Positions 21,182-49,088 of a DNA stretch of 64,000 nucleotides are shown here, one piece after another. Every line of letters starts with the position of its first letter. The stretch's first letter is position 1. The stretch comes from Pseudomonas sp. PH1b (GTDB lineage: Bacteria > Pseudomonadota > Gammaproteobacteria > Pseudomonadales > Pseudomonadaceae), in the NCBI RefSeq assembly GCF_000633395.1, contig NZ_AYMU01000012.1, positions 1 to 64,000 of the forward strand, written 5' to 3'. The notes beneath the pieces were generated by a model. It made no database searches, was not told where the DNA came from, and saw nothing but the letters and a program-made list of their open reading frames with translations. The position numbers and the translations under genes are program-made.

Positions 21182-21970
21182 ATGCAGACCCAGACCGCCC
21201 CGCTTCCCGCCGCGCCCGCCGTTGCCACCGACCACCGCGAAGTGGCGATCGATATTGCCGGGTTGAACAAGTTCTACGGCGCCTTCCACGTCCTGCACAA
21301 CATCGACCTCAAAGTGCGCCAGGGCGAACGCATCGTCCTCTGCGGGCCTTCCGGCTCCGGCAAATCCACCCTGATCCGCTGCATCAACCGCCTGGAGATT
21401 GCCGAAAAAGGCCGCATCCTGGTGGACCGCACCGACCTATCGCAAAACACCCGCGAAGCCGCCCAGGTGCGCAGCCAAGTGGGCATGGTGTTCCAGCACT
21501 TCAACCTGTTCCCGCACATGAGCGTGCTGGACAACTGCACCCTGGCACCGATGACCGTGCGCGGGTTGTCGCGGAAAAAGGCTGAAGAACTGGCGCGGGG
21601 GTTTCTGGCCAAGGTGGGGATTGAGAATCAGGCGGATAAGTACCCCAGCCAGCTTTCTGGCGGGCAGCAACAGCGCGTAGCGATTGCTCGGGCGTTGTGC
21701 ATGGAGCCGAAGATTATGTTGTTTGATGAACCGACCTCGGCGCTGGACCCGGAGATGGTGAGTGAGGTGCTGGATGTGATGGTGAAGCTGGCCGGCAGCG
21801 GCATGACCATGTTGTGCGTGACCCATGAGATGGGGTTTGCAAGGCAGGTGGCGGAGCGGGTGTTGTTTTTGGATGGGGGGCGGATTGTGGAAGATGCGCC
21901 GCCGGAGGCGTTTTTTGGGGCGCCGAAGAGTGAGAGGGCTAAGGCGTTTCTCGCGCAGATTGTGCATTGA
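21182..21970 (+). CDS. Amino-acid ABC transporter ATP-binding protein
   Basis: A 262-residue ATPase with Walker [10 protein letters not shown] (about 56), Q-loop, signature LSGGQQQR (about 157), Walker [15 protein letters not shown] (about 177) and the H-switch [11 protein letters not shown]. It energises the two permeases upstream. It has about 20 extra N-terminal residues rich in Ala/Thr/Pro before the domain. GGAG precedes the ATG. From about position 21590 the codon use becomes markedly less C/G-ending than in the operon before it, just ahead of the AT-rich insert. Confidence 0.9.
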
Positions 21971-22390
21971 AAAAATCTGAAAATTATGGAACGAACATGA
22001 GCTCTCACCACAACTACAAGCGGCATCACTCCCCCGAAACAAGGACCTAAAAATGCCGCTAAAATATCCACTGCACACCGAGGCAACACTCTTAAAATTG
22101 ATTCATCTTCACCGTCAGAAGTAGACCTTCATCAGTAGATGATAGGAGCCTCTGACTCTTTATATCCACAAGAGTTTAAAAACTAGGCTTCAGGTGAATC
22201 ATAATTTCTCTTATGTCCATTTGGCTCGCTACATAGCGCGAGCTATATCTATACACATCTGGACAGCCTAGATAGCAGTTGAAAGCTGTATGCCTCCCTG
22301 TTCAGCGCGCCAGTGATGCGCAAAGCTGATAAACCAATGGCTTCAATGAAGTCATTTTGATAGCATAACTTGAGGTCACTAAAAACAAGG
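21971..22390. other. AT-rich intergenic DNA at the left edge of the insert
   Basis: About 420 bases with no convincing gene, RNA or REP element. Base composition drops sharply compared with the operon to the left. A six-pair hairpin GCTCGC/GCGAGC at 22224-22243 is the only structure noticed. The promoter of the following gene must lie here; I could not place it. Confidence 0.5.
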
Positions 22391-25219
22391 ATGCTAGACT
22401 TGAAAAAAATGAATTGGCTCCATCTATCAGATTTTCATTTTGGGAAGAACGCTTTTCAACAAGAGTTTATAGCCAGTAAGATATTAGACCACGTAGAAAA
22501 TTTCAGAGAGAAAGAAGTCGAGCCTAACTTGATTTTTATTACCGGCGACATTTCTAACTCTGGAAAACCAGAAGAATTTGAAAAGTTCAATGAAGTGGTT
22601 ATGGACCCGTTGATCAGAATGCTGGGAAATGAATTCAAGGATCGGATATTCGTAGTACCAGGCAACCACGACCTATCTCGAAAAGTAAATAAGGGCTTCA
22701 GCAGAGAGATATTCCTTAATACTGAAGAAGGACTATTCGAGCCGACTGTCGAATCGCTAGAAGAGCGGCAAATGTTAAACGCGCGCTTCGATAATTTCTC
22801 GCAACAGTTAAACTTCACAAACTCCCATGAAATTTTCTTTCAAAAAGGCTGCTTCGTTCAAAAGCTAAAAATCAACAGTATCGAGCTAGGTATTATTGGA
22901 ATAAACACCGCGTGGTTATGTCGGGATGAATTTGACAAAGGCAAACTCTCGCCGGGAGTTGCTCTAATAAGGAATGCTCTGGAAGAAATTCAAGAGTGCG
23001 ATGTAAAGATTGTACTAGGCCATCACCCGCTTGAATGGTTTGCCCCAAACCACTCAACCCCTATAAAGTCATTATTCGGCTCCAATAATATAATCTATCT
23101 ACACGGACACATGCATTCATCTTGGGCTGAACCATCATATGGTGCTGGACAAGAGTTTCTAGCAATTCAAACAGGCGCGGCCTATCAAGCACCTGAGGGA
23201 AGCAAGTGGAAAAATGGCCTGTTGTGGGCGAAGCTTGACCTAGAGGAAGGTCAAGTTAGTCTGCAACCGCACGAATGGAGTCATGAAGCTCAAAGTTGGA
23301 TGTTGGCGGGCGGTAACCTTCACGATGCGCACAGGGATGGTGCTTGGTGGAATTACGATATACCTAAGAAACAATTAAAAAAAACATCACCCAAAAAAAA
23401 TGTTCGCCTTCCAGGTGGTTGGGCAACAGCTGACTTAGACTCTCTGAACCAATACTTAGAGCCCCTCAGCGACGCAGCAGCTCTTGCATATTTCGATGGA
23501 GCAACTCCAGATTGGAAGGTTGCGCTTTCCACATCGATTCCAAGAAGAGAAATTGTCACAAAAATAAAAAACACTTATCTTTCATCATACAGCTCATCTG
23601 AAACTACTATTTGTGCCATATTAGCAGCAGGGTGTGAAGGTAAAACCACAGCCCTACTTCAGTCAGCCTATGAAATAGTGTCTGAAAAAAATGATAAAAA
23701 AATACTAATCCGAACAAACAATATCAGGCCATTTGAAGTAGAACAACTTTACCAAACTCTAAAATCACACCATAGTTGGCTCATCGTAATAGACGAAGGA
23801 GACCAAGAAGCAAAAAAAATCCTTAACTTTATTGAGACACGCCCTGAAGAATTGCATGGAGAAATTGACTTCTTAATAGCTAGTCGCGACTCTGACTGGA
23901 AGTCCTCTGGAGCGGCAACATTACCCTGGGGATACGCTTCCACTTATAAAGAGATTATCTTAAAAGATCTAAGCGCTAAAGATGCAAACGATATAGTTGA
24001 TGCTTGGAGTTCTTACGGCCCCTCTGGTCTTGGGGCAGAACTAGCAGAACTAGATCACGAAACAAGAGTTGAAAAGTTGCGATACTATGCTAAAAAAGAG
24101 TCTAAAGGGAGTTCAGGAGCTTTCTTTGGTGCATTGCTGTTATGCCGCCACGGAGGAGATCTTCTCGATCATGCTCACTCAATGCTAGAGCGTTTAGATC
24201 AAATAAAAATAAACGATGAAAAAAGTCTAAAAGATGCTCTCGGCTATATCGCTGCGATGCACTCTGAAAACTTTGACAAGCTTAACTTTGACGCTCTTGC
24301 AGCCGTCCTCAATTTATCGATACCAAAACTCCAGAAAGAAGTAATACGAAAGCTAGGCCAAGAGGCAGCAGCTACAACAACAGCAACAGCCATATTTACA
24401 CGACACAAGTATATTGCTGACGCGATTGTCGAAATACTGGAAGTCAAATACGACAAAGACATCACAGAGTTCTTTACCGACCTTGCTTTAAGCGAATTAG
24501 AACGCAGCAAAGAAACAAAAATTCTCAACATCAACTTCTGGCGCTTTGATCTAGCCGACTCTTTATTCAACTCAGGAAAAAATCGACTTGCCATTAATCT
24601 AGCAGAAAAGCTTTTCCAAGCAGACCAAAACAACCCTTTCCTGTTGACAAAGCTTGCATACTTTTATCGAAAGAACGAAAACTCTCAGAGTGCAATCGAA
24701 TTAATCAGAGATTTTCAATACACTCCAAAACACCGAGCTTTTTTCTTTGAATGGGCAGTATGCGAAGGTACCGAACGCAACTACTTGGAAAATGCTCTAC
24801 TAGCAACTTATGCAATTTCCGACGACGCAGACTCAAACCAATTAAATATTGACGAAGCAGTCATGATGCTAAACGGGCTTTCAAGTTGTTACTCTCGTTT
24901 ATATAGAGAGCTAGGAGACCCCATATTTGAAGAAGCAGGTGAAGCCTCACTATCTCTACTTAGTATCTTCTTAAACTCCCGCCCTTCTAAAAGAGGAAAG
25001 ACAAATGTTCCCAGCTTTCTAAAGCGGGTAGATAGAAAGCGAGCTAAGCTTTACGAGCGAAAACATGCTATCGAAAAAATCAAACAAACTGGCATCCATT
25101 TAAAAAAGTACTCAATCAACCCGAGCGTCGGAAAGTTAGTAAATATTGAAAATTGTATATTTGAAAACCTTTCACTACTAACTCAAAACCTAGAGCGGAT
25201 TGATTCTAGCAAAAGCTAG
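22391..25219 (+). CDS. Metallophosphoesterase-STAND-like NTPase-helical repeat fusion, candidate anti-phage defence protein
   Basis: A 942-residue protein not recognised as a named family. Residues 8-290 form a calcineurin-like phosphoesterase with a complete two-metal site: D14-x-H16, GD53, GN92-H93-D, GH211-H and GH240-x-H242. Residues about 395-640 form a P-loop NTPase with Walker A AAGCEGKTT (K418, first Gly replaced by Ala), Walker B LIVIDE (D468, E469) and a sensor-like LIASRDSDW near 498, as in STAND ATPases. The C-terminal 300 residues are helical with TPR-like spacing (NPFLLTKLAYFYRKNENSQSA). The layout of effector, switch ATPase and repeat sensor is that of STAND defence proteins. 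AT-rich codons mark it as transferred. The start could also be ATG 22409, giving MNWLHLSDFHFG, or TTG 22370. Confidence 0.8.
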   Translation: MLDLKKMNWLHLSDFHFGKNAFQQEFIASKILDHVENFREKEVEPNLIFITGDISNSGKPEEFEKFNEVVMDPLIRMLGNEFKDRIFVVPGNHDLSRKVNKGFSREIFLNTEEGLFEPTVESLEERQMLNARFDNFSQQLNFTNSHEIFFQKGCFVQKLKINSIELGIIGINTAWLCRDEFDKGKLSPGVALIRNALEEIQECDVKIVLGHHPLEWFAPNHSTPIKSLFGSNNIIYLHGHMHSSWAEPSYGAGQEFLAIQTGAAYQAPEGSKWKNGLLWAKLDLEEGQVSLQPHEWSHEAQSWMLAGGNLHDAHRDGAWWNYDIPKKQLKKTSPKKNVRLPGGWATADLDSLNQYLEPLSDAAALAYFDGATPDWKVALSTSIPRREIVTKIKNTYLSSYSSSETTICAILAAGCEGKTTALLQSAYEIVSEKNDKKILIRTNNIRPFEVEQLYQTLKSHHSWLIVIDEGDQEAKKILNFIETRPEELHGEIDFLIASRDSDWKSSGAATLPWGYASTYKEIILKDLSAKDANDIVDAWSSYGPSGLGAELAELDHETRVEKLRYYAKKESKGSSGAFFGALLLCRHGGDLLDHAHSMLERLDQIKINDEKSLKDALGYIAAMHSENFDKLNFDALAAVLNLSIPKLQKEVIRKLGQEAAATTTATAIFTRHKYIADAIVEILEVKYDKDITEFFTDLALSELERSKETKILNINFWRFDLADSLFNSGKNRLAINLAEKLFQADQNNPFLLTKLAYFYRKNENSQSAIELIRDFQYTPKHRAFFFEWAVCEGTERNYLENALLATYAISDDADSNQLNIDEAVMMLNGLSSCYSRLYRELGDPIFEEAGEASLSLLSIFLNSRPSKRGKTNVPSFLKRVDRKRAKLYERKHAIEKIKQTGIHLKKYSINPSVGKLVNIENCIFENLSLLTQNLERIDSSKS

Positions 25220-25241
25220 TCCCCACAGAAAAAACCAATGT

Positions 25242-25265
25242 CCGAGGCGAAAAAAATCGCCTCGG
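25242..25265. terminator. Perfect hairpin after the metallophosphoesterase-NTPase gene
   Basis: CCGAGGCG (25242-25249) pairs perfectly with CGCCTCGG (25258-25265) around an A-rich loop, 22 bases past the stop codon. No T-run follows on the plus strand, so termination is only probable. Confidence 0.5.
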
Positions 25266-26116
25266 CCCTTCAAGTCGGCCTCAAACCACATATTGCCGAT
25301 TAAACAGACCTTAAAGCCCCTACGCCCTCCACACTAAGCTTACCTTCGCCCAAAAAAACCATAACCCACCCAATAATAATTCTAATAAATAGCATTAGCT
25401 ATACCACTGAGCAGTAATCCGCCATACATTAATAGACAACATAAGATTCACGTCAATTATTTACAAACAACATCCTCTTAGAGACACTCACCAGCAGATT
25501 CCGCGTCAAAAAAATCATTACATTTACTCAACGCGCCCCCTACCAGAGACCGCCCCTACTGCATAAACATTCAGAGCCCAGCACATTTGTTTATACAAAA
25601 CTTACAAAACGACCACGACCGACAAAGAACGGGACTTTACCCACCCACCAATAATAATTATATAGACCACTTTAAAAGATCCATTATCACGCACATTACT
25701 TACCGCCCGCCCCCGTCCATACTTACGCGAAATCTTCGCACTGACGCCCCTCAAATCATATATAACTACGACTCCGCAAACGGAGATATCAAGCATGTAA
25801 AACTACGTAATTACCTGAGTAGATATTGTCATTCCGACACAACCACTTAAATAATCCCTTCAATATTCAGTTGCACCACTCACTTGTCGATACTACAGTC
25901 CCCCCCGCGAAGCAAAATCCGCGACGACCTTGGCCGGTCGAATTACAACGCAGCATCAGCGTCCACAGCACCTTTGCAGTCGCCTTTCCGGTGCCCGCGA
26001 CAGGATATTATGACGGCTGTGCGCGATGGTTCTCCGGTCGTCATAGGCGCGCACAGCAGTCATTTTCTTCGTCGTCGGCAACTCAGGTGATTGCTCCCTG
26101 CACAGGAGCTGTACCG
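25266..26116. other. AT-rich region without a supported gene
   Basis: About 850 bases. The left 600 bases are AT-rich, with scattered stops in all frames. An 87-codon open frame at 25587 has no ribosome site and no recognisable product. Composition returns to the host value at about 25900, in a stretch leading to the small conserved gene. It may be the decayed end of the insert or hold an untranslated RNA; nothing specific could be supported. Confidence 0.45.
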
Positions 26117-26398
26117 ATGATTGACCAGCCACTCTCGCGCTTTACCGCCGTCGACACCCACGACGCCAACCAAGCCGTTTTCTACCTCGACACCCAAGCC
26201 TCTCTGAACGATCTGGCCAGCAGTGCGGCCCATCGTTTCACCGTGGTGCGGGATCTGATGGACACGCTGTCCACCCTTAACCTGAAAGACATTGCCGACT
26301 GCGATCTGACGCGGGTCACCCGAGGGGTGCATCTGCTCACCCGGGAGGGTTGCGCGGTGCTGGAGGTGATTCAGTGGCGGACAGGCCAAGAGTCCTGA
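26117..26398 (+). CDS. Small conserved hypothetical protein
   Basis: A 93-residue soluble protein beginning MIDQPLSRFTAVDTHDANQA, with AGGAG eight bases before the ATG. Predicted mixed alpha/beta, no signal peptide. I do not recognise the family. Its last 60 codons are repeated, with 54 of 60 residues identical and no indels, directly after hxsA (30666-30848), which makes this the intact copy of the gene at whose 3' part the hxs island is inserted or duplicated. Confidence 0.6.
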   Translation: MIDQPLSRFTAVDTHDANQAVFYLDTQASLNDLASSAAHRFTVVRDLMDTLSTLNLKDIADCDLTRVTRGVHLLTREGCAVLEVIQWRTGQES

Positions 26399-26845
26399 AC
26401 GCCATTGAATTCAATAAGCGCGTAAAACGCGCTTGGCTTTGCCCCAGCCTTTGATCTTGCTTTGGTTTTGGCTTTTGATCTTGCCCTTGATCTTCCTGCC
26501 CCTTCAGGAGGCCGAACGCAGGCGTTGCGTAGGGGGCAGCTCGGCATGGATGCCGAGCTAGCCGCCCCAGGCCATGGATGGCCTGTGGCGGCGCGCCCCC
26601 GGAGCAATGCCGGAGCGAGGGAACGCCGAGCCTAGGCGAGGCGCCGGATGCGGGGGCAGGAGCCCTTTGGTTACTTTGGGGCTTTTCCAAAGTGACCCGC
26701 TGTAAGAGCGGAACCGCCAGTGGCCGCGACCGCAGCAACGGATATGTACGCCAAGCGCCCCCAAGTGCACGCGGTAAGAAGGTAACTCCGCGTCATCGTT
26801 GACGAGTTTTGCTGGCAGCCGACACCCACAGGGAAATCGCTGATT
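26216..26845 (+). repeat. Left direct repeat bracketing the hxs island
   Basis: It contains the last 61 codons of the small conserved gene plus a non-coding large intergenic element: GCGCGTAAAACGCGC palindrome, GCCGCCCCAGGCCATGGATG, GAGCCTAGGCGAGGC, GTGACCCGCTGTAAGAGCGG, GCAACGGATATGTAC, CGCGTCATCGTTG. The same order recurs at 30666-31275. The remainder to hxsD (26846-27018) must carry the hxs promoter. Confidence 0.8.
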
Positions 26846-27018
26846 TGACAGCTGCCGTTCGCAGGACCGCCTGGCCGGGACTTCATTAAATCCAATCGAT
26901 TGCAGTCAAGAACACGAGCACAGAAATATTTTAAAGAAAGCTGCGACGAATGATGGCCAATCGCCCAGGAACTCGGCAAAATCCGCACACTCTTCAGGGC
27001 TTTCAAGGATTGATATTG

Positions 27019-27318
27019 ATGACATGGCCAGTCACTCTGCACCTCAGCGACATCGCATACCCTCTCAGCACAGCGCAAAGAACCGCCTATAGCTTGGCCG
27101 CTGAATTGGCTATTCAGATCACTCCTGAGCCTGGCTTTATCAACCTCACGATCTACCCTTCCAGCGCCCAAACAGCCCTCTCTATTGATCACGCACGGGC
27201 GCTAGTTCTTCAGCATCTGAATGACTTTGCTTTACGTGACCACATCCATAGTGAAACGGCTGGATTGCGAGAAGTCTTGGCACGTGCCGCACTCACTGGA
27301 TGTGGGTTGCCTCAGTGA
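27019..27318 (+). CDS. hxsD: His-Xaa-Ser system protein HxsD
   Basis: A 99-residue cytosolic protein, the small accessory subunit of the His-Xaa-Ser system, encoded first in hxsD-hxsB-hxsC-hxsA. By analogy with other radical SAM peptide-modification systems it may present the precursor to the maturases, but its function is untested. The start MTWPVTLHLSD has AAGGA nine bases upstream; a 23-codon longer frame lacks a site. It overlaps hxsB by 19 bases (or four if hxsB starts at GTG 27315). Confidence 0.78.
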   Translation: MTWPVTLHLSDIAYPLSTAQRTAYSLAAELAIQITPEPGFINLTIYPSSAQTALSIDHARALVLQHLNDFALRDHIHSETAGLREVLARAALTGCGLPQ

Positions 27319-28802
27319 CCTTGATAGCCACCGAAACCCAAGGTTATCGCCTCCTGCCATTTCGCTTCATGCGTATGAGCTCGGGAAATGAACGGGACAT
27401 TCTGCTTACTTCCGAAACAGGCGAGTACCTCCATGTCACCGATCCACAACTTCGAGATCTAAGTTTTAAGCGTGTACAGCCAGGAACCTCTCTATACAAG
27501 GATCTACTCGCTCGTCATTTTATTTACGAGCCAGATCAACACGATCCAATTCCGGAGATGGCGGCGCAGTACCGCAGTCGGAAAGACTTCCTCCTGCAAG
27601 GCCCTGCATTACACCTGTTTGTGGTGACTCTGCGTTGCAACCATACATGTCAGTATTGCCAAGTATCACGTGCACCTTTGGGTGGCTCTGGACATGACCT
27701 TTCCGAAGCAGATGCACGTGCTGCCGTAGACCGCATGTTCGAGTCGAACGCTCGAGCCCTCACGGTAGAGTTCCAAGGTGGCGAACCTCTATTGGCCTTT
27801 GAACGCGTCCGCCAGATCATCGAATGGATAGTGGAACGGAACGTCGTGGAACAGCGCGATATCCAATTCGTCATCACAACCACACTCCATCACTTGACCG
27901 AAGAAGTTATCGTCTTCGCCAAGAAGCATCACATCCAGTTTTCTACTTCGCTCGATGGGCCAGCGTCATTACACAACGCTAACCGCCCCACTCCCTCCCG
28001 AGACTCTTATGAACGAACCCTCGACGGCATTCGTCGCGTCCGCGAACACCTCGGCCATGAAGCTGTCTCGGCTCTAACGACGTTAACGGCCAAGAGCCTT
28101 GAGCAACCAAGAGCGATCATCGACGAGTATGTAGCCCAGGGGTTTTCCAGTATCTCCCTTCGCCCCTTAAGTCCCTACGGTTTCGCCTCGAAGGGTGCAC
28201 AACGGCTGGATTACTCGATGGAACGTTATTTGGCGTTCTACAAGGAAGCGCTGGCTTACCTGCTGGAGATCAATCAACAAGGTGTGTACTTATCAGAGAG
28301 CTACGCAAGTCTACTGCTAAAGAACATCCTCACGCCTTTCTCATCTGGCTATGTCGATCTGCGCTCACCTGCCGGTGCCGGCACCGCAGCCTTGGTTTAT
28401 AACTACGATGGCTACGTGTACCCATCTGACGAAGCAAGAATGCTGCTGGAAATGGGCGAGGATGGTTTGCGTTTAGGCAGCGTGCATCAGCCGTTAGCCG
28501 AGCTACTACGCTCACCAGTCATGGAAGCATTGCTAGCAAGTGGTGTTGCCGAAACACTACCGGGCTGCGTGGATTGCGCACTCGTCCCCTATTGCGGCGC
28601 CGACCCTGTGGAACACTTCGCACGCCAAGGCGATCCGATTGGTCACCGTGCCTTCAGTAGCTTCTGTAAGAAAAATCTAGGACTACTGCAACATCTATTC
28701 GAACTATTGAGAGATGGCGACGATGATATCCAAAGCGTCTTGCTTTCCTGGCTAAATCGTCGCGCCTACTCCGAAGTCCTCTTCCCTGGGTATCGAGGGT
28801 AG
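27300..28802 (+). CDS. hxsB: His-Xaa-Ser system radical SAM maturase HxsB
   Basis: A 500-residue radical SAM enzyme. The N-terminal 100 residues look like a peptide-binding region. The 4Fe-4S/SAM motif C113-x3-C117-x2-C120 (RCNHTCQYCQ) opens the TIM-barrel core, with EFQGGEPLL (about 155) binding the SAM amino group. The C-terminal CVDCALVPYCG and FCKKN cysteines form a SPASM-like region for extra clusters. It should install a modification on HxsA at the expense of SAM. The start used is ATG 27300; GTG 27315, overlapping the hxsD stop as GTGA, is an equally good coupled start. Confidence 0.88.
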   Translation: MWVASVTLIATETQGYRLLPFRFMRMSSGNERDILLTSETGEYLHVTDPQLRDLSFKRVQPGTSLYKDLLARHFIYEPDQHDPIPEMAAQYRSRKDFLLQGPALHLFVVTLRCNHTCQYCQVSRAPLGGSGHDLSEADARAAVDRMFESNARALTVEFQGGEPLLAFERVRQIIEWIVERNVVEQRDIQFVITTTLHHLTEEVIVFAKKHHIQFSTSLDGPASLHNANRPTPSRDSYERTLDGIRRVREHLGHEAVSALTTLTAKSLEQPRAIIDEYVAQGFSSISLRPLSPYGFASKGAQRLDYSMERYLAFYKEALAYLLEINQQGVYLSESYASLLLKNILTPFSSGYVDLRSPAGAGTAALVYNYDGYVYPSDEARMLLEMGEDGLRLGSVHQPLAELLRSPVMEALLASGVAETLPGCVDCALVPYCGADPVEHFARQGDPIGHRAFSSFCKKNLGLLQHLFELLRDGDDDIQSVLLSWLNRRAYSEVLFPGYRG

Positions 28803-28807
28803 GAACG

Positions 28808-30037
28808 ATGCTAAGAAAAGATACCCATTTCGAGATCCAGCATCTAATTGAACCTAAGTTGTTGAAGGTCGTCACCGTAGACGAGTTCATTGAACAAGGC
28901 GTATCCATCTGCGCTGGGGACGTGAGCTTCGACGATCTAATGCTGTGGCTACCAGATGCCGAGCTTCAACGTAACCCGCACTTACTATCATTACCCGTTG
29001 GAGGCTTCCTTACTCCGGAACAACTTAGCGGGAATGCAGAGGTAAGCAAGCTGCAACTTCACTCCCCAAAAGATCCAGATGTCGTTCGCCCAGGTGACGT
29101 AATTGCCATAACACCCGGAAGCCCGATCGTCCGAGTTCTCTATCGACGCGGCTCCGACAGTAACCTGCTGTTCATGACTGATCGTTGCAACAGCCTCTGC
29201 TTGATGTGTTCCCAACCACCTAAGGATATTGATGATCGTTGGCACATTGAGGAGAACCTTCGTCTGATCGATCTAATGGATCCTGGCGAGGAGAACCTAG
29301 GCATCAGTGGCGGGGAGCCCACGCTCTACCGCGACGGTTTGTTGGAAATCTTAGCCAAGTGCAAAACTGTGCTTCGACAAAAGTCTATTCATATATTGAG
29401 TAATGGCCGGCTGTTCAAGGATCCGAGTTGGATCGAGTCACTTGCTCATATCCAGCATCCGCAACTAAGTTGGGGCATCCCGCTGTATGCCGACAACGCA
29501 AGAGATCATGACCACGTAGTGCAGGCGCCAGGGGCCTTCAGCGAAACACTCCAAGGGCTGTACAACCTCGCTCGAGCCAACCAGATCATCGAGATTCGCG
29601 TCGTCCTCAACCGGCTGACCACGCCACGACTTCCAGAGCTCGCTCACTACATTTTCCGTAATTTGCCCTTCGTACGACATATTGCACTGATGGGTATAGA
29701 GAGTACTGGCTTAGCCCGAAAGCATTATGAGGAGCTGTGGATTGATCCTCTGGATTACCAAGAGTCGCTAAGTCAGGCCATTTACTTTCTGCACAACCGA
29801 GGGTTGCCGGTCTCAATCTATAACCTCCCTCTGTGCCTGGTACCTGCGCATCTCTCACGCTTTGCACGCCAGAGCATCTCAGACTGGAAAAATCTGTTCA
29901 TCGACACCTGCCAACAATGCGCCGCAGCTCATCAATGCTCGGGCTTTTTCAAATCTCATACCGCGCGCTGGCAAAGCCGTGGGATAAAACAACTATCAAC
30001 TGAGGCATTCAATGCCTACGCAAGGAGCGCACAGTGA
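28808..30037 (+). CDS. hxsC: His-Xaa-Ser system radical SAM maturase HxsC
   Basis: A 409-residue second radical SAM enzyme. The core motif C127-x3-C131-x2-C134 (RCNSLCLMC) is followed by LGISGGEPTLYRDGL (about 161). The C-terminal CQQCAAAHQCSGFF offers three further cysteines for an auxiliary cluster. It starts five bases after hxsB, with GAGGGTAGGA before the ATG. Two different maturases acting on one precursor is the hallmark of this system; which residues each changes is not known to me. Confidence 0.88.
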   Translation: MLRKDTHFEIQHLIEPKLLKVVTVDEFIEQGVSICAGDVSFDDLMLWLPDAELQRNPHLLSLPVGGFLTPEQLSGNAEVSKLQLHSPKDPDVVRPGDVIAITPGSPIVRVLYRRGSDSNLLFMTDRCNSLCLMCSQPPKDIDDRWHIEENLRLIDLMDPGEENLGISGGEPTLYRDGLLEILAKCKTVLRQKSIHILSNGRLFKDPSWIESLAHIQHPQLSWGIPLYADNARDHDHVVQAPGAFSETLQGLYNLARANQIIEIRVVLNRLTTPRLPELAHYIFRNLPFVRHIALMGIESTGLARKHYEELWIDPLDYQESLSQAIYFLHNRGLPVSIYNLPLCLVPAHLSRFARQSISDWKNLFIDTCQQCAAAHQCSGFFKSHTARWQSRGIKQLSTEAFNAYARSAQ

Positions 30038-30663
30038 AATTGCTTGATCGCTGGAAAATCCTGATTGGGGGCATGACCCTGTTGCCGGTCGCGAGTATCA
30101 ACCTTGCCCAGGCCAACCCAATGCCACTTGCCGATACAAATTGGGAGCCACGGGAGAAAAGTCAGCCACCAGTCTTTGCCGACACGCTCAATGCCCCTGA
30201 TGCGACCAATATGTACGCAGCTCACCGCTCGCATAGTTCACACCGCTCGCACAGCTCCCATAGCTCTCATTACAGTGGATCAAGTGGCTATAGCGCGCCT
30301 CGCTACTACAACCCTCCTGCCACGAGCACTCGCAGCTACAACACACCAAGCAGCTCGAATTACGGCTCAAGCAGCTCTTCCGGCTCATCAACCAGCAGCT
30401 CTTTTTACCAATCATCTGGTACATCGACAGGCTCGACCTCAACGACTACTCGAACACGACCTAGCGAAGTACAGAAAAGCAACCTGGTCATACGAGTGCA
30501 AACGGCCTTAATGGTGCGCAGGTACTACCAAGGAGCAATCGATGGCGTGATGGGCAAAGGAACTCGAGGAGCGCTGATGTCGTTTCAAACGGACAACGGC
30601 CTGACCGTGAACGGGCAGATGGACACACCAACATTAAACGCATTGGGCATTCGCATTCCTTAG
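30034..30663 (+). CDS. hxsA: His-Xaa-Ser repeat protein HxsA (putative modified substrate)
   Basis: A 209-residue exported protein. The signal peptide ends near residue 27 (NLAQA-NP). Six consecutive His-Xaa-Ser triplets lie at residues 64-81 (HRS HSS HRS HSS HSS HYS). A low-complexity Ser/Thr/Tyr linker follows (about 82-145), then a C-terminal peptidoglycan-binding domain (about 150-209; YYQGAIDGVMGKGTRGALMSFQ). The repeats are the expected targets of HxsB/HxsC, and the end domain would anchor the product in the cell wall. It starts at GTG 30034 overlapping the hxsC stop (GTGA), with AAGGAG six to seven bases upstream. Confidence 0.87.
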   Translation: MKLLDRWKILIGGMTLLPVASINLAQANPMPLADTNWEPREKSQPPVFADTLNAPDATNMYAAHRSHSSHRSHSSHSSHYSGSSGYSAPRYYNPPATSTRSYNTPSSSNYGSSSSSGSSTSSSFYQSSGTSTGSTSTTTRTRPSEVQKSNLVIRVQTALMVRRYYQGAIDGVMGKGTRGALMSFQTDNGLTVNGQMDTPTLNALGIRIP

Positions 30664-30665
30664 GT

Positions 30666-30848
30666 GCCAACAGTACGGCCCATCGTTTCACCATGGTGCG
30701 GGAGCTGATGGACACGCTATCCACGCTTAACCTGAAAGACATTGCCGACTGCGATCTGACGCGTGTCACCCGAGGGGTACATCTGCTCACTCGGGAGGGT
30801 TGCGCGGTGCTGGAGGTGATTCAGTGGCGAACAGAGCAAGAGGCATGA
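30666..30848 (+). pseudogene. Duplicated 3' end of the small conserved gene
   Basis: Sixty in-frame residues, beginning ANSTAHRFTMVRELMDTLST, match the end of the protein at 26117-26398 at 54 of 60 positions, without indels. There is no start codon or ribosome site; it begins three bases after the hxsA stop codon. It is the truncated partner of the direct repeat. Confidence 0.82.
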
Positions 30849-31275
30849 ACGCCATTGAACTCAACCAGCGCGTAAAACGCGCTTGGCTTTGCTTTGGCTT
30901 TTGATCTGGCTTTGGCCTTTGATCTTCCTGCCCCGTTAACCACGATGGCCGAACGCAGGCATTGATCCGTGGGTAACCCGGCAGGACGCCGGGTTAGCCG
31001 CCCCAGGCCATGGATGGCCTGTGGCGGCGGCCCACGGATCAATGCCGGAGTGAGGGCATGCCGAGCCTAGGCGAGGCACCGAGTGGAGGGGCAAGCGTTT
31101 TTTGGTTCCTTTTTTTGGCGTTTGAAAAAAAGGGACTCGCCGTAAGGGCGAAACCGCCAGTGGCCACACCCGCAGCAACGGATATGTACACCCCCCGCCC
31201 CCAAGCCCCCGCGGAAAAAAGGTGCCTGCGCGTCATCGTTGGCGAGCTTCGCTGGCAAGCCAGCTCCTACAGGGC
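30666..31275 (+). repeat. Right direct repeat bracketing the hxs island
   Basis: It matches 26216-26845 through the duplicated gene end and the following non-coding element, ending in CGCGTCATCGTTGGCGAG and a half REP (CTTCGCTGGCAAGCCAGCTC). With 31276-31304 it fills the gap before the MocR gene; no other gene is seen there. Confidence 0.8.
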
Positions 31276-31304
31276 TCGCTGCGAAATCGCCAGTTGCCTG
31301 CCTT

Positions 31305-47005: not shown

Positions 47006-49088
<2,083 letters not shown>

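Follow-up and report, generated by a model that had tools for sequence, protein, structure and literature searches.

An hxsDBCA operon of Pseudomonas sp. PH1b: a predicted exported substrate with a conserved His-Xaa-Ser core, two radical SAM maturases and a mobile distribution

The first 64,000 nucleotides of contig NZ_AYMU01000012.1 of Pseudomonas sp. PH1b (assembly GCF_000633395.1), hereafter the window, contain at positions 27019-30663 what is, judging from its sequence, a genuine and complete hxsDBCA operon, an ordinary member of the His-Xaa-Ser (Hxs) system named in NCBIfam. The best overall explanation, to which we give a probability of roughly 0.4, is that HxsA is an exported, wall-held protein that HxsB, HxsC and HxsD modify to form a ladder of His-Ser cross-links, and that the operon is mobile cargo. 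The family already had a name; our comparison narrows its chemistry to a testable prediction, namely a mass change of -2.016 Da per unit that requires both His and Ser and involves no Cys, and directs the question of its role towards a benefit for the carrier cell's own envelope. The trait was found in bacteria that differ widely from one another, where it sits on plasmids, a phage, a prophage or islands. A cross-link ladder, if true, would define a new class of envelope proteins stiffened by covalent bonds.

All four genes are intact and lie in the order hxsD, hxsB, hxsC, hxsA (Table 1). hxsD and hxsB overlap by 19 bases (hxsB ATG at 27300, hxsD stop at 27318), hxsB and hxsC are separated by a 5-base gap (stop at 28802, ATG at 28808), and hxsC and hxsA share a 4-base GTGA overlap (hxsA GTG at 30034, hxsC stop at 30037). 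The hxsD start at 27019 (M-T-W-P) is also present in several Pseudomonas relatives. Three of the products exceed the cut-offs of their NCBIfam models: HxsB matches TIGR03978 at 580.8 bits (cut-off 370), HxsC matches TIGR03977 at 384.7 (267.9) and HxsA matches TIGR03979 at 212.9 (121.65). HxsD reaches 47.7 bits against TIGR03976 (E 1.5e-12), slightly below the cut-off of 50, and its gene occupies the correct position before hxsB. Pfam recognises Radical_SAM (radical S-adenosylmethionine, SAM) in HxsB and HxsC and PG_binding_1 in residues 150-204 of HxsA. An earlier note on this DNA had described four hxs components in this order and with these junctions, which the coordinates of the open reading frames (ORFs) and the NCBIfam scores confirm; its statement that two radical SAM proteins stand beside one HxsA is likewise supported by the NCBIfam and Pfam matches. 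Given that related operons recur in many genomes, the resemblance to Hxs is far beyond chance, and we see no essential difference between the window's operon and the four-gene system of TIGR03976, TIGR03977, TIGR03978 and TIGR03979, within which the window's HxsA is of the peptidoglycan-binding type with six units. No sigma-70-like site emerged when 26400-31300 was scanned for promoters (2.8 expected from shuffled sequence).

Table 1. Features of the hxsDBCA operon and its surroundings in the window
Feature	Positions	Strand	Remarks
hxsD	27019..27318	+	Small partner protein, 99 aa; alternative in-frame ATG at 26950 gives 122 aa
hxsB	27300..28802	+	Radical SAM maturase; TIGR03978
hxsC	28808..30037	+	Second radical SAM maturase; TIGR03977
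hxsA	30034..30663	+	Presumed substrate, GTG start, 209 aa; TIGR03979
HxsA signal-peptide-like N-terminus	30034..30114	+	Ends A-Q-A; read from sequence
HxsA core	30223..30276	+	Six in-register units HRS HSS HRS HSS HSS HYS; read from sequence
HxsA PG_binding_1 domain	30481..30645	+	Pfam PF01471, 47 bits (gathering 23)
Left copy of duplicated stretch	26216..26817	+	3' end of small unnamed ORF and multi-copy intergenic repeat; direct repeats D1-D6
Right copy of duplicated stretch	30666..31257	+	Begins 3 bases after the hxsA stop
Calcineurin-like phosphoesterase and STAND NTPase protein	22370..25219	+	Neighbour outside the operon; PF00149, PF25199

The conservation of the HxsA core carries most of the argument. 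Distinct HxsA proteins (104) had been picked by a run of at least three H-x-S units, and invariance of His and Ser in that set is a matter of construction, so we remeasured conservation by a BLAST search that used the window's HxsA as the query with its 18 core residues masked and applied no pattern filter. It returned 108 loci with 89 distinct HxsA. In the 12 His and Ser columns of these proteins, the expected residue fills 1051 of 1055 ungapped cells; the four exceptions are a Tyr for Ser (L083) and a Ser for His in the sixth unit of three proteins (L089, L141 and L170), and gaps account for 13 further cells. The residue in the middle columns is variable (R, S, A, T, Y or H), and Cys occurs in no core column of the 89 proteins. 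Cys anywhere in the ORF was found in 11 of 121 HxsA records, and the window's HxsA is not among them. In the pattern-chosen set, the longest in-register run comprises six units in 74 proteins, five in 15, seven in 12, and three, eight and nine in one each, and the middle residue is S (317 times), R (183), Y (83), A (25), H (5), T (4), V (3), N (2) or G (1). The pattern filter had dropped 20 of 140 loci, of which at least four (L068, L096, L157 and L158) carry HxsA in an upstream-extended ORF. The 140 loci include some genomes twice, from a genus scan and from named contigs, and counts of distinct proteins discard identical proteins only.

Codon usage points in the same direction. Among 62 distinct pattern-chosen six-unit cores, both TCN and AGY serine codons are used at all six Ser columns, and no single serine-preserving change interconverts these codons. 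In three Klebsiella/E. coli HxsA pairs, residues 1-95 show no non-synonymous codon differences and 25, 31 and 35 synonymous ones, whereas the same pairs, in the same order, have 16, 13 and 20 non-synonymous differences in the linker and 10, 5 and 12 in the wall-binding part. Between the window and two Pseudomonas loci (L053 and L054), the core plus post-core differs by one non-synonymous codon each, compared with 21 and 32 in the linker. As far as these alignments go, the core is retained everywhere and the far N-terminus is not. With the His and Ser columns near-invariant while the codons and the middle residue vary, we conclude that selection acts on a rigid H-x-S register.

Around this core, HxsA has a recurrent modular order, namely a signal-like N-terminus, a pre-core whose commonest form is N-[ILM]-Y-A-[AG], the H-x-S core, a low-complexity linker and PG_binding_1, which is seen in 79 of the 104 distinct proteins. 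An MKLLDRWK-type start is kept in most Pseudomonas relatives of the window's branch. A hydrophobic stretch followed by an A-x-A-like motif was detected in 96 of 103 other HxsA, as against 681 of 2060 shuffled N-termini. The terms "exported" and "wall-binding" that the earlier note had applied to HxsA thus hold as predictions, the former from the signal-peptide-like N-terminus and the latter from the Pfam domain. Wall binding is predicted for the 79 proteins just mentioned and does not extend to short HxsA2-type substrates, which are devoid of the domain; the H-x-S array, not wall anchoring, is therefore the common denominator. Two Brevundimonas HxsA (L165 5700-6671 and L157 9413-10579) have an extra C-terminal stretch after the wall-binding domain that resembles TonB_C by eye; Pfam TonB_C was found in one unnamed member of the 104 HxsA scanned, a set to which L157 does not belong. 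hxsA is single-copy in the host genome at the TIGR03979 cut-off, and a stretch on the minus strand of the window (48813-48986) resembles the wall-binding part of HxsA, covering only model positions 131-188 of TIGR03979 at 45.2 bits.

Both maturases carry the Cys residues of radical SAM enzymes together with additional C-terminal ones. In HxsB, C113, C117 and C120 (CxxxCxxC) and C423, C426, C432 and C456 near the C-terminus are invariant in nine aligned sequences; we assume that the four C-terminal Cys probably form one auxiliary cluster, corresponding to the second auxiliary cluster of SPASM proteins with the first missing. The best non-self NCBIfam models for HxsB are those of PapB (98.2 bits), a nif11-type maturase (92.6), CcpM (76.5), SCIFF maturase (75.2), QhpD (74.9) and YhhB (69.7). 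The PapB, SCIFF maturase and YhhB models are labelled as cross-link or cyclophane formers, QhpD is presumably another, and the labels of the nif11-type and CcpM models are silent on this point. HxsB also matches the model of the anaerobic sulfatase maturase (60.1 bits), which we take to be an oxidiser of Ser or Cys, and solved structures of that maturase. As all of these non-self matches are far below the cut-offs, they demonstrate kinship and not function.

In HxsC, C127, C131 and C134 and C343, C368, C371 and C377 are invariant in 38 sequences, and an additional N-terminal domain of about 115 residues precedes the radical SAM part. The structural model of HxsC (predicted local distance difference test, pLDDT, 92) is closest in its radical SAM part to viperin (VIA Z 19.2, root-mean-square deviation (rmsd) 2.8, 220 aligned residues), SkfB (18.8, 3.3, 232) and SuiB (17.5, 3.6, 253), and resembles structures of the anaerobic sulfatase-maturating enzyme (anSME) and EpeE among many others. 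Viperin, SkfB and SuiB share this fold and differ from HxsC in the additional N-terminal domain; the PDB matches cover mainly residues 94-406 and hardly that domain. HxsD has invariant D69 and R73 in an alignment with 39 HxsD sequences picked by eye from other hxs loci, and its AlphaFold model (pLDDT 93) has the order beta-alpha-beta-beta-long alpha. Comparison of this model with the PDB gave no confident match (best VIA Z 7.6, rmsd 10.2, 78 aligned; best Foldseek E 0.042), the best entries, all with Z below 8, being an MscS-type channel domain, aIF2, KH and Pcc1. We considered HxsD as a classical recognition element of ribosomally synthesised and post-translationally modified peptides (RiPPs), that is, a PqqD-like winged helix, and did not adopt this assignment, because the order of elements differs from that fold and the PDB matches are not confident. 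HxsB and HxsC occur together in 138 of the 140 loci, two of which were judged from coordinates; among four flagged loci, hxsC lies in an early-starting ORF in L124 and L166, L088 is a fragment, and no hxsC was seen in L149.

From these features we infer the following course of events. HxsA would be synthesised in the cytoplasm, where HxsB and HxsC, aided by HxsD, would act on the six-unit core; in each unit the His imidazole would be joined to the beta carbon of the Ser at i+2, giving a three-residue cross-link with the loss of two hydrogens. The modified protein would leave via the general secretory route, be retained at the wall and alter the envelope of its own cell, while the operon would spread as cargo of plasmids, prophages and islands. 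According to passages of one article, triceptide enzymes form a link between position i, occupied by an aromatic residue or His, and the beta carbon of the residue at i+2; HaaB, ScaB and YhhB join C2 of His to that carbon, and MscB joins Phe to the beta carbon of Ser, also from i to i+2 (PMC11002830). The HxsA core columns display this substrate pattern, with His at i and a conserved residue at i+2, and because the published enzymes give precedent for His in the first position and for Ser in the third, and H-x-S combines both, we favour a His-Ser ladder, a tentative choice that our analysis places a little short of even odds. The pattern-free recheck of the core left the odds on the various chemistries unaltered. 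MscB, HaaB, ScaB and YhhB are alike to the Hxs maturases, as far as those passages describe them, in being radical SAM enzymes acting on an aromatic residue or His at i and a cross-linked residue at i+2; the Hxs system differs in that HxsB lies far below the family cut-offs, two radical SAM proteins are present, the substrate is long and predicted to be exported, and its cross-link is a deduction.

Several observations weigh against this explanation. HxsB lacks Cys residues that a full SPASM domain would contain, and it falls far short of the cut-off of every cyclophane model that it matches (YhhB 69.7 of 445 bits, GrrM 53.5 of 310, FxsB 47.5 of 370 and XyeB 35.8 of 450); such distant similarity does not fix the chemistry, and the anaerobic sulfatase maturase model is matched as well. 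A single type of cross-link leaves the need for two radical SAM enzymes unexplained, although one of the two could handle recognition or a second modification. As for export and anchoring, one HxsA (L164, 47 aa) has no signal-like stretch and six more fail the simple signal test, PG_binding_1 is absent from 25 of the 104 distinct HxsA, and the first 44 residues are not conserved in the Pseudomonas pairs (16 and 26 non-synonymous differences to L053 and L054, respectively).

Other chemistries were therefore weighed alongside the His-Ser ladder. A thioether of the sactipeptide or ranthipeptide type is ruled out for the core, as no core column offers a donor Cys and the window's HxsA has no Cys at all. 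It is unlikely, in our estimate, that the third-position Ser is instead oxidised or epimerised without cross-linking (to a formylglycine-like residue or D-Ser), with His serving recognition or later metal binding: the matches of HxsB to the anaerobic sulfatase maturase, the resemblance of HxsC to anSME and EpeE and the conservation of Ser, which is as strong as that of His, would all suit such a reaction, but equal conservation of His at exactly i-2 in nearly every unit would be left unexplained, and several of the stronger HxsB model matches are labelled cross-link formers. A different His cross-link appears rather improbable; it could connect the His residues of adjacent units (i, i+3), be a C-N or C-O bond, or join units to each other instead of closing single ones. 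His does recur at every third residue, and passages of PMC11002830 report that other enzymes produce C-N links and a His-His ether link; however, the conserved third-position Ser would then not be needed. The middle position is often Ser as well, but it accepts R, Y, A, T and H. Finally, the chance that we are dealing with low-complexity His/Ser DNA, accidental resemblance or decaying genes is practically negligible. Fragmentary hxsB loci do exist in relatives (e.g., G218 and G376), yet all four window genes are intact and coupled, and the strong purifying selection on the core, together with the codon and column data, speaks against decay.

The distribution of the operon bears on its role. 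HxsB at E 1e-60 or better was found in 54 of 398 genomes of the genus, 52 of them above the family cut-off. Contigs of named genomes yielded at least 80 loci, extending from Pseudomonas to Stenotrophomonas and relatives, Alphaproteobacteria, Methylobacter, Dyadobacter, a planctomycete and uncultured lineages; a Paenibacillus locus (L150) is a 5.4-kb contig that could be contamination. Among the matches listed, Pseudomonas records contain the nearest named operons, and HxsB of the best one is 98% identical. In a plasmid collection, proteins related to the window's HxsB turn up in 408 records at E 1e-40 or better, and none reaches 60% identity to it. The Klebsiella version of the operon matched 354 plasmid records. 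The match spans at least 80% of the operon in 310 records, and of all 354, 294 are typed as conjugative. The same version also matched 153 of 5,426 E. coli genomes, always on the chromosome and in 139 cases across at least 80% of its length. A blastn search with the window's operon gave no match in E. coli, where its counterparts were reached via the plasmid matches, since the E. coli and Klebsiella versions are presumably too diverged from it at the DNA level. Two phage records matched, and one of them, Leptospira phage vB_LnoZ_CZ214-LE1, carries hxsA, hxsD, hxsB and hxsC together.

The carriers themselves are diverse. Of the 153 E. coli loci, three were inspected. In two of them the operon is part of an integrated element that also encodes a relaxase, ParB-like proteins and a recombinase. 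Their hxs operons (L224 and L226) are about 97% and 74% identical, respectively, to one Klebsiella operon, and in both elements a TIGR04141 gene starts 18-20 bases after hxsA (L224 12416-14020, L226 12417-14024). This gene is a possible functional partner of hxs; the literature searched yielded no paper on TIGR04141. In the third locus (L225 8488-15940), hxsDBCA is embedded in P2-like prophage genes, with an ogr-like gene on one side and tail genes on the other, at what is possibly a moron site. On a Klebsiella IncFIB plasmid (L170 1-15120), kefB-GI, psiE-GI and HtpX of a heat-resistance locus lie about 9-10 kb from hxsDBCA, whereas a second Klebsiella plasmid has other neighbours. An Aeromonas conjugative plasmid has the operon near Tn7-like genes, and on a Roseomonas plasmid the neighbours are different again. 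Taken together, these occurrences on mobile elements suggest that the hxs operon travels as cargo on plasmids, prophages and islands.

Neighbouring genes were clustered from ORFs of at least 90 aa around the 140 loci, which fell into 85 context groups. The commonest non-hxs family, a LysR-type regulator by reading its sequence, is present in 10 of them, and no exporter or leader peptidase was recognised by eye in the 30 commonest families at this size limit, below which smaller genes, such as those for immunity, would be missed. With every neighbour family confined to at most 10 of the 85 groups, the neighbourhoods argue against a released bacteriocin and in favour of an envelope protein that is modified and exported. 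The earlier note's "RiPP-like cell-surface product" is hence better taken to mean a modified structural envelope protein than a released peptide. An envelope trait that would be useful to the carrier is the role we favour, since no partner gene recurs, most HxsA have the wall-binding domain and the distribution is mobile. A more specific version, in which a wall-anchored HxsA with a rigid ladder of five to seven His-Ser cyclophanes would act as a mobile, moron-type trait protecting its host, for example against phages, rival elements or competitors, is a doubtful extrapolation; the passages of the literature consulted mention no structural, non-released poly-cyclophane protein.

Two other roles compete with that of an envelope trait. 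The His-rich array may be a periplasmic metal ligand whose metal binding is tuned by the modification, in which case the operon would be a mobile trait for tolerance of metals or stress. In favour of this idea are the runs themselves, mostly 15 to 21 residues long and with His at every third position, the requirement of a His cross-link for copper binding in noursin (as given in passages of PMC10206099) and the Klebsiella copy about 9-10 kb from heat-resistance genes, but we regard it as unlikely, given that no metal transporter was recognised by eye in the 30 commonest neighbour families and that the neighbours of the second Klebsiella plasmid are different. A released antibacterial RiPP is very improbable, even though a pair of radical SAM maturases beside a short repetitive core is reminiscent of RiPP clusters and the mobile distribution is wide: no recurrent exporter, peptidase or immunity candidate was recognised among genes of at least 90 aa, and PG_binding_1 is present in most HxsA.

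An association with defence genes was assessed by running PADLOC (E 1e-40) on 229 neighbours of 25 Pseudomonas hxs loci, one per context group (25 of 28 groups, the other three being on short contigs), and on 221 control proteins from 25 Pseudomonas stretches with hand-chosen coordinates. No enrichment near hxs was apparent, with about seven proteins per set among the matches listed, these numbers being inferred from per-family counts; we therefore do not claim hxs as a defence gene. The hxs proteins themselves gave only partial viperin matches in PADLOC (best E 7.4e-8 for HxsB and 1e-7 for HxsC), and HxsA and HxsD gave none at E 0.001.

Among known systems, the HxsA2-D-B-C variant (NF038296) is a close relative. 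It has related maturases and the same H-x-S array and occurs in the same genus, and it differs in that its substrate of about 94-101 aa lacks a wall-binding domain and is encoded upstream of hxsD. Three Pseudomonas substrates score 100.8-110.8 bits against the HxsA2 model (cut-off 48), and one of seven short substrates from elsewhere passes. The earlier note had considered both the modification and the role unsettled, and this agrees with the literature searched, which excluded most subscription papers and contained no paper reporting either. What it did contain were listings without experiments: hxs genes appear in a gene list of a P. aeruginosa clone (PMC8446631), HxsB and HxsC form clusters of a similarity network in which maturation is termed putative (PMC9062424), and PMC6537148 gives another such listing.

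The chromosomal site of the window's operon is variable. Two copies of a stretch of about 0.6 kb flank the operon, the second 82% identical. The repeat in this stretch is an intergenic element that the genus has in multiple copies. In a close relative (G071), the flanks are 96% and 93% identical and enclose 20.7 kb instead of the 9.3 kb of the window. That interval contains one ORF-plus-repeat copy and one further repeat-only copy and has no match to the hxs operon, and G071 is also absent from the genus HxsB matches. Our reading is that the operon was gained at a variable site together with a partial duplication, and the multi-copy nature of the repeat part makes homologous exchange a plausible route. 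In another genome (G302) the site is likewise occupied by the hxs operon (94% over 5.3 kb), but the neighbour upstream is a Gabija pair. In the window, the upstream neighbour is a phosphoesterase-STAND protein that reaches 128.7 bits against the NCBIfam DS8 model (cut-off 790) and matches PADLOC PDLC00736 and PDC-S60 over its N-terminus only; because its N-terminus alone matches anti-phage models, it may be an unlisted variant of an anti-phage protein. Two more large ORFs of G071 were considered as NACHT/STAND-like and set aside, having no Pfam match at E 1e-8. As a side observation, the site (window 21970-31300 compared with L051 and L194/L195) holds different conflict genes in three close Pseudomonas genomes: the phosphoesterase-STAND gene in the window, the Gabija pair in G302 (GajA 699 and GajB 578 bits) and a CdiA/CdiB-type two-partner-secretion pair in G071 (Pfam TPS and ShlB).

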